A DNA stretch of 47,158 bases. It comes from a virus. The DNA is taken from positions 1 to 47,158 of IMG/VR virus record IMGVR_UViG_3300028197_000025; one strand, given 5' to 3'. Below the pieces are notes generated by a model. It saw only the letters and a program-made list of their open reading frames with translations, had not been told where the DNA came from and searched no databases. The translations under genes and the position numbers were made by a program. Positions within the stretch are counted from its first letter, which is position 1. Each line of letters starts with the position of its first letter. Below are positions 10,278 to 44,539 of the stretch, one piece after another.

Positions 10278-10365
10278 CGGAGAGGGTGGGATTTGAACCC
10301 ACGGATGCTACTAACATCTCTAGTTTTCAAGACTAGCGCGATCAGCCGGGCTCTGCCACCACTCC
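10278..10365 (-). tRNA. tRNA-Ser (anticodon UGA)
   Basis: Minus strand GGAGTGG...CCTCTCC forms the acceptor stem with one U-U mismatch. The anticodon arm CTAGT-CTTGAAA-ACTAG gives UGA. A long variable arm and T arm GTGGG-TTCAAAT-CCCAC are present. No CCA is encoded. It reads UCA codons. The mismatch might weaken aminoacylation or be corrected by modification. Confidence 0.93.
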
Positions 10366-44069: not shown

Positions 44070-44237
44070 TCACTTACTGTAGGTGCGTCCACGATAACAA
44101 AATGTGCCGTGGGTTTGCTTACTCTCTACACAACGTGTGTCATACTCAACACCACGATATGAGGTGTGAAGAACTTGTGCGTCGTGAAGTGCAGATACTT
44201 TATTGATCTGCTTCTTGATCATGTTTAGTGTGTTCAT
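44070..44237 (-). CDS. DUF4278-like small protein
   Basis: 55 residues. HTSYRGVEYD and later FCYRGRTYS carry the paired YRG motifs of the cyanobacterial DUF4278 family. A basic N-terminal helix (MNTLNMIKKQINKVSAL) precedes them. AGGAG lies 9 bases before ATG. The family is cyanobacterial, so a host-derived origin is likely. Function is unknown. Confidence 0.75.
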   Translation of the reverse strand: MNTLNMIKKQINKVSALHDAQVLHTSYRGVEYDTRCVESKQTHGTFCYRGRTYSK

Positions 44238-44280
44238 TTAATTTACTCCTGAAAGTTAGGGTTTTTAATTCCCCGTTCCT

Positions 44281-44445
44281 TCAGTCGTGTGCGTCCCATG
44301 GATAGCATTCAGGGGTTGATTCCTTCATGACCTCAATCAATTCTACCTTATATTGGGTAGGAATATTCTCATTTGCTTTCATCCGAATCATAATTGAATC
44401 GGCTTGAGTACATGTGAGTGATGAATAGAATAATATTTCTAACAT
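44281..44445 (-). CDS. small protein controlled by a glutamine-II riboswitch
   Basis: 54 residues: MLEILFYSSLTCTQADSIMI, then RMKANENIPTQYKVELIEVM and PECYPWDAHD. The start is hydrophobic, like a weak signal or membrane segment, and two cysteines may pair. I recall the MLxxLFYSxLTCxxA pattern in other cyanophages. Its leader is the predicted glutamine-sensing RNA, so its dose probably follows nitrogen status. By analogy with host glutamine-synthetase inactivating factors it might act on nitrogen metabolism, but no sequence similarity supports that. Confidence 0.78.
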   Translation of the reverse strand: MLEILFYSSLTCTQADSIMIRMKANENIPTQYKVELIEVMKESTPECYPWDAHD

Positions 44446-44446
44446 A

Positions 44447-44501
44447 GGATGAACGGCTCCGTTCCGCGACTTACTTGCGTCCTCCTTGCGGGGGATGAAC
44501 G
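44447..44501 (-). ncRNA. glutamine-II riboswitch (Downstream-peptide motif)
   Basis: The minus strand reads CGTTCATCC (44501-44493), a GCAA-capped C/G stem, GGACGCAAGTAAGTCGCGG, then GAACG. 5' CGTTC pairs with GAACG (44464-44460) as P1 and GAC...GTC suggests the internal pairing. This fits the Downstream-peptide RNA of cyanobacteria and marine metagenomes, which binds glutamine. A second CGTTCATCC (44455-44447) follows and can instead pair with GAACG, enclosing the ribosome binding site GGAG. ATG is one base further. Confidence 0.78.
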
Positions 44502-44510
44502 TATGGTAAC

Positions 44511-44539
44511 AGTGTACATCACTATTTAGTATATGTCAA
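44511..44539 (-). promoter_or_regulatory. sigma70-like promoter for the riboswitch transcript
   Basis: TTGACA (44534-44539), 17 bases, TACACT (44511-44516). Transcription would start about 7 bases on, just before the aptamer. The spacer has CTAAATAGTG as in the gp32 promoter. Confidence 0.7.

Follow-up and report, generated by a model that had tools for sequence, protein, structure and literature searches.

A nested protein gene splits a probable type I glutamine riboswitch upstream of DUF4278 in cyanophages

RESULTS

Organization of the locus

The window analyzed here is the whole 47,158-nt stretch of viral DNA in IMG/VR record IMGVR_UViG_3300028197_000025 (positions 1 to 47,158), which belongs to a virus infecting marine cyanobacteria. 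An element composed of CGUUC and GAACG blocks is encoded on its minus strand, and the location first given for it, 44447-44502, was correct. Read as mRNA, its 5' part consists of CGUUCAUCC (44501-44493), a hairpin, GGACGCAAGUA, AGUCG, CG and GAACG, and from this GAACG the transcript continues through GAGC and a second CGUUCAUCC (44455-44447) to a U and the AUG (44445-44443) of a 54-aa ORF. The arrangement described in the earlier note, an aptamer-like RNA that ends in GAACG and is flanked by two copies of CGTTCATCC 5' of the 54-aa ORF, was thereby confirmed on the minus strand. We named the strands a (first CGUUC), b (first GAACG), c (second CGUUC) and d (second GAACG). Strand d (44278-44274) lies 182 nt past b, directly after the stop codon of the ORF, whose end reads ...CCAUGGGACGCACACGACUGAAGGAACGGGG and contains a second GGACGCA, the second GAACG and, around the stop codon, GAAGGAACG; in type I glutamine aptamers, the last of these forms the 3' core. 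All features are listed in Table 1.

Table 1. Coordinates of the element and its neighbors in the window, with the evidence for each.
Feature	Position	Strand	Evidence or remark
Promoter TTGACA-17 nt-TACACT	44511..44539	-	10/12 consensus matches; -10 ends 9 nt 5' of aptamer
Strand a, CGUUC, aptamer P1 5' strand (partner d)	44497..44501	-	a:d 100% paired in 103 types; C-G to U-A in one type (7 elements)
P2 hairpin, closed by UCC/GGA	44480..44495	-	99.4% paired, many compensatory changes
Aptamer core CGCAAGUA	44472..44479	-	Aligns with CGGAAGUA of RF01739 in relatives
P3 5' strand AGUCG	44467..44471	-	Covaries with CGACU past the ORF
P4, b:c hairpin GAACG-GAGC-CGUUC, loop overlapped by GGAG	44451..44464	-	100% paired; first pair G-C in 84, C-G in 19
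P5 5' strand UCCUAUG, including start codon	44443..44449	-	7 bp with CAUGGGA in minimum-energy fold; covariation across ORF
Nested ORF, 54 aa, PHROG 504	44281..44445	-	Stop UGA is part of aptamer core
P5 3' strand CAUGGGA, within last ORF codons	44294..44300	-	Minimum-energy fold and covariation
P3 3' strand CGACU; final U is first stop-codon base	44283..44287	-	Covariation
Core GAAG and strand d GAACG (partner a)	44274..44282	-	Alignment to RF01739 in relatives; pairing
Expression platform CUGAAGG (44284-44278):CUUUCAG (44255-44249), beside DUF4278 gene GGAG (44249-44246)	44249..44284	-	
Downstream DUF4278 gene, 55 aa	44070..44237	-	PF14105 match; YRG motif in homologues

Distribution and sampling

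Sequence resembling the element was present in 430 phage records, nearly all titled as Synechococcus or Prochlorococcus phages or as cyanophages, and in at least 120 viral stretches, a recurrence that is not due to chance. Host origin was considered and rejected, since a scan of 84,980 cellular genomes with the element pattern returned 43 contigs, nearly all without the remainder of the element, and the (near-)complete elements were confined to a handful of apparently phage-derived contigs from metagenomes, single cells or draft assemblies. Loci for comparison were fetched with patterns that fixed the first part only, the distal part only, or an altered b with c left open. Pairing was counted over 103 distinct block sets (types) from 238 cyanophage elements, which come from related phages, so that the counts do not represent independent events. 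Among 58 informative loci fetched through the distal part alone, the b:c unit was found upstream in 53.

Conserved pairings

Both a:d and b:c were complementary in 103 of 103 types. The first b:c pair was flipped from G-C to C-G in 19 types with a:d complementary throughout; 18 of these kept a:d unchanged, and one further type (7 elements) also altered a:d to U-A. The alternative pairings a:b and c:d mispaired in 19 of 19 informative types, with C opposite C in a:b and, once, U opposite C. When b was allowed to be A, C or T, 64 stretches were fetched, and all 42 parsable unique elements had C in b and G in c. Because a:d and b:c are kept while a:b is broken, the conserved fold involves no competition between the two CGUUC copies for a single GAACG. 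The hairpin with the ribosome binding site (RBS) in its loop, proposed in the earlier note, is upheld by these counts, as is the conservation of the 3' CGUUC copy among cyanophages that the note had suggested checking. Its assignment of aptamer P1 to the first CGUUC and the near GAACG is not supported, the comparison pointing to d as the partner of a, and neither is its picture of two exclusive folds sharing one GAACG, since b:c lies inside the bound form and is co-conserved with a:d. Tandem independent aptamers (a:b plus c:d) were likewise ruled out as the conserved fold by the compensatory changes in the 19 types.

Pairing also extended across the ORF. The P3 covariants of ORF-bearing forms were AAUCG/CGAUU, AUUCG/CGAAU and AGUCA/UGACU, and the covariation value was reached in 0 of 5000 shuffles; as the shuffles leave relatedness in, counting distinct compensatory types gives a more reliable gauge. 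At the third P3 pair, 30 of 103 types had a mismatch (C.A or A.C). The nested ORF sits in a hairpin loop closed by P5, a stem that contains the ORF's start codon and shows covariation from one side of the ORF to the other: the base before AUG formed C-G in 46 cases, U-A in 18, U-G in 8 and A-U in 2, and was unpaired in 3 (n = 77). In five relatives (L024, L046, L060, L062 and L121), P5 is swapped for a long palindrome, UUCGCUAUUCGCAAAUAGCGAA, and a sequence resembling this palindrome occurs in P2 of L011 and L070.

Aptamer class

At the gathering threshold, Rfam returned nothing over the whole window beyond two tRNAs; the two tRNA genes lie on the minus strand at 1716-1801 and 10278-10365. The first half-element of the window alone scored 20.8 bits against Glutamine (RF01739, cut-off 35) and 20.4 bits against Glutamine-II (RF01704, cut-off 33), so that the covariance check suggested in the earlier note came out negative on the half reported there. 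The ORF-bearing form falls outside the scored span as a whole, and the ORF-length insert is presumably too long for the Rfam model. The ORF-less relatives L014 and L031 reached 43.6 and 39.6 bits against RF01739 (cut-off 35), in alignments that run from strand a to d, form P3 and place a 38-nt insert in its loop. For two other ORF-less relatives, L018 (35.3 bits) and L051 (37.7 bits), Rfam favored the c-to-d half alone as the aptamer. In the single-unit phage aptamers L021, L043, L079 and L125, P3 is an ordinary hairpin and the scores were 45.9-60.3 bits. manA and PhotoRC-II RNAs occur near the glutamine element or on its contig in L051 (586-780) and L014 (1021-1116).

The core of the elements, CGCAAGUA ... 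GAAGGAACG (AAAGGAACG in part), differs from the type I consensus, CGGAAGUA ... GAAGGAACG, by one base, C for G, with which affinity or ligand could differ; the CGCAAGUA core is also found in single-unit phage aptamers scoring 39-60 bits. The three helices of type I were present: P1 from CGUUC and GAACG (with one compensatory type), the covarying P2 hairpin after CGUUCA (99.4% paired), and P3 between AAGUA and GAAGG, covarying across the ORF with its frequent C.A mismatch at pair 3. As for Glutamine-II, the gathering score was missed and the pseudoknot of the first CGUUC with the near GAACG corresponds to a:b, which is broken in 19 of 19 informative types. The earlier designation as a glutamine-II riboswitch can therefore be retained for the glutamine type and not for type II.

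The nested gene and other insertions

Long inserts carried an ORF in 161 of 168 cases, starting 4-11 nt past c (exactly 5 nt in 149) and ending at the core UGA or UAA. GGAG was found in the b:c loop of 125 of the 161 ORF-bearing elements and of 0 of 32 ORF-less ones. The nested proteins are 49-66 aa long, with Cys12 and Cys47 invariant among those aligned, and their C-termini, (W)DAND or similar, are translated aptamer sequence. Within nested-ORF codons, changes numbered 118, 44 and 123 at positions 1, 2 and 3, respectively, position 2 being the most conserved. Nested genes are annotated solely as hypothetical proteins in the phage records examined, and the family of the 54-aa protein, PHROG 504, has no function assigned in PHROG. 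Structure prediction gave a helical hairpin (pLDDT 81), for which comparison with the PDB yielded no match with E < 1; a Pfam Hemagglutinin match (E = 0.073, below cut-off) was set aside.

A further small ORF of another family, with its stop at the core, occupies the P2 loop in 31-34 elements, including those of syn9, S-TIM5, S-CAM1 and P-RSM4. The P2-loop ORF mostly belongs to PHROG 6471 (L002, L006, L256, L259, L262 and about 30 others), and the UAA of GCAAGUAA serves as its stop codon in P-RSM4 and some relatives. In some relatives both P2 and P5 hold a nested gene. L159, L187 and L173 have, just 5' of strand c, the end of an endonuclease-like ORF (..SIRRWKNSL*), which in L173 comes after an intact GCAAGUA..b, as though a homing gene had inserted itself between b and c.

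Promoter, downstream gene and expression platform

A perfect TATAAT was found in 85 of 161 relatives, mostly 7-8 nt before the aptamer, compared with 2.6% in shuffles. Given the position of the window's -10 box, the mRNA should begin at the first aptamer strand. The earlier note had taken the 54-aa ORF as the controlled gene; as the sole target it is not supported, for the ORF is situated within the aptamer and what is conserved downstream is the DUF4278 gene. In the window, this gene matched PF14105 at E = 1.9e-4, its 22.2 bits falling short of the curated cut-off of 25.3. All 10 sampled downstream genes matched DUF4278 at E = 0.044 or better, 4 of them above the curated cut-off, and the YRG motif of DUF4278 was present in 229 of 229 readable downstream genes.

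The platform fold CUGAAGG:CUUUCAG had a computed energy of -15 kcal/mol (z = -3.7). Its variable R:Y pair was G-C in 30, A-U in 25 and G-U in 20 cases and never A-C, the other platform positions being partly fixed by the search pattern. No terminator was found, which supports translational rather than transcriptional control and leaves that part of the earlier proposal standing. With the aptamer enforced in folding, the unpaired fraction of the window's DUF4278 start codon rose from 0.16 to 0.79; among ORF-bearing relatives the start opened from 0.30 to 0.54 on average, with no opening in ORF-less ones. The DUF4278 Shine-Dalgarno sequence was hardly altered in the folding model, and the computed accessibility of the nested start was unchanged. 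By computed energy, the unbound fold comes out ahead by a median of about 7 kcal/mol (10.7 in the window), and it is covariation, more than energies, that supports the platform. Within the unbound fold as predicted, GUUCAU of strand a (44495-44500, minus strand) can pair with AUGAAC at the DUF4278 start (44232-44237, minus strand), a pairing absent in relatives in which the gene starts with AUGGCA.

DISCUSSION

Comparison of relatives establishes, at the level of sequence, the pairings of P1, P2, P3, P4, P5 and the platform, the placement of the ORF and the link to DUF4278. The element is most likely an RNA sensor for glutamine, and probably a type I riboswitch whose aptamer is interrupted by a nested gene, with DUF4278 switched on when glutamine is bound; both the ligand and the direction of switching are what we infer. 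The mRNA would start at the aptamer, P1 would form from the CGUUC at its 5' end and the GAACG 219 nt on, P2 would form locally, and P3 would join AGUCG 5' of the nested gene to CGACU 3' of it, the P3 arm bearing P4, with the nested RBS in its loop, and P5, which would hold the nested start codon and close over the ORF. Without glutamine, the aptamer 3' strand CUGAAGG would pair beside the DUF4278 RBS and keep DUF4278 low; with glutamine, P1, P3 and GAAGGAACG would build the aptamer, the 3' strand would be withdrawn and DUF4278 would be translated. Such activation agrees with the report that type I and type II glutamine riboswitches raise the expression of DUF4278-type genes upon glutamine binding (PMC6316151). 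Host relatives of the DUF4278 protein show similarity to the N-terminal part of an inhibitor of glutamine synthetase (PMC6316151).

As the nested stop codon lies within the aptamer core, ligand binding should preclude translation of the nested ORF and vice versa: a ribosome finishing the ORF would cover P3 and P1, and the bound form should keep the nested start in P5. We more tentatively suggest a two-gene switch, in which glutamine may close the nested gene, through its start in P5 and its RBS in P4, and open DUF4278, ribosomes on the nested gene may destroy the aptamer, and the RNA may compare the glutamine level with ribosome traffic. A serious alternative, on the unlikely side, is that a permissive loop carries the ORF as a passenger, on the pattern of group I introns, the riboswitch controlling DUF4278 only and leaving the nested gene unregulated. 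ORF-less forms share the same core, the ORFs in the P2 loop and the endonuclease-like ORF end between b and c (L159, L187) indicate that peripheral loops tolerate insertions, and aptamer formation leaves the nested start equally accessible in the computation; yet the RBS sits precisely in the b:c loop only when the ORF is present, and the start and stop codons fall in the covarying P5 stem and in the core, respectively.

That the same fold serves another ligand appears improbable. This idea draws on the core base, for the phage forms examined read C where the RF01739 consensus has G, a base that was itself fixed in most fetch patterns; however, GGACGCA occupies this place in the type II aptamer, another glutamine binder (PMC6698751), and the downstream gene is the usual DUF4278 target. 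Quite unlikely is a compact glutamine-II aptamer (a:b) in competition with the b:c hairpin over a single GAACG, with glutamine turning on the 54-aa ORF. Both pairings are possible in the window, all four strands are mutually compatible in most types, short-range folding could allow a transient a:b during transcription, and Huang et al. 2019 proposed a competing RBS-occluding fold for type II (PMC6698751), but the 19 flipped types break a:b and c:d and retain a:d and b:c, the type II score is below its cut-off and the full-length relatives are type I, and b:c is part of the bound form rather than an alternative to it. Very improbable, finally, is a DNA-level cassette boundary with the repeats as recombination joints for small-gene swapping and the RNA folds incidental: PHROG 504, 13397 and 6471, among many other small genes, do fill slots between near-identical repeats, but compensatory changes preserve RNA pairing while the repeat sequence changes, and the element is homologous to a known riboswitch and stands in fixed relation to DUF4278. 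Some recombination at the repeats may nonetheless take place as a side effect. Small-gene swapping through such joints has reportedly been proposed for the promoter stem-loop cassettes of T4.

If the split type I riboswitch works as we propose, translation would be coupled directly to metabolite sensing, and T4-like cyanophages would gain nitrogen-dependent control over the DUF4278 protein. With the type I (glnA) class, RF01739, the window element shares P1 from CGUUC/GAACG, P2, the CGxAAGUA core, P3, GAAGGAACG and a DUF4278 gene as target, such genes being the usual target of cyanobacterial glutamine riboswitches. It differs in that the P3 loop is replaced by an RBS hairpin and an ORF-bearing stem, the aptamer halves flank a protein gene, and the core has C for G. 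Its likeness to Glutamine-II (Downstream-peptide, RF01704) lies in CGUUCAUCC...GGACGCA, GGAACGG and small downstream proteins, whereas the window half scores 20.4 of the 33 bits needed and ORF-less relatives with the same core fit the type I model with P3 and GAAGGAACG. Glutamine riboswitches are known in marine phages, in S-CREM1, T4-like cyanophages generally and Melnitz (PMC9964418, PMC9602691, PMC9004378), and, as far as the accessible portions of these reports go, they are type I aptamers like the window element, the S-CREM1 glnA match (99 nt, 44 bits) being about the size of the ORF-less insert form, and are described without a nested ORF, a split P3 or a b:c hairpin. Our literature search, which reached mainly outside subscription journals, found no case of a protein gene lying within the ligand-binding domain of a riboswitch, and standard covariance searches overlook riboswitches split by an ORF. 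Coding sequence in a peripheral loop of a structured RNA is familiar from group I introns with endonuclease genes and from HEARO RNAs. Unlike these, which are a ribozyme and an RNA of unassigned function, the window RNA is a predicted metabolite sensor, and it has the start codon, stop codon and RBS of the inserted gene built into its helices.
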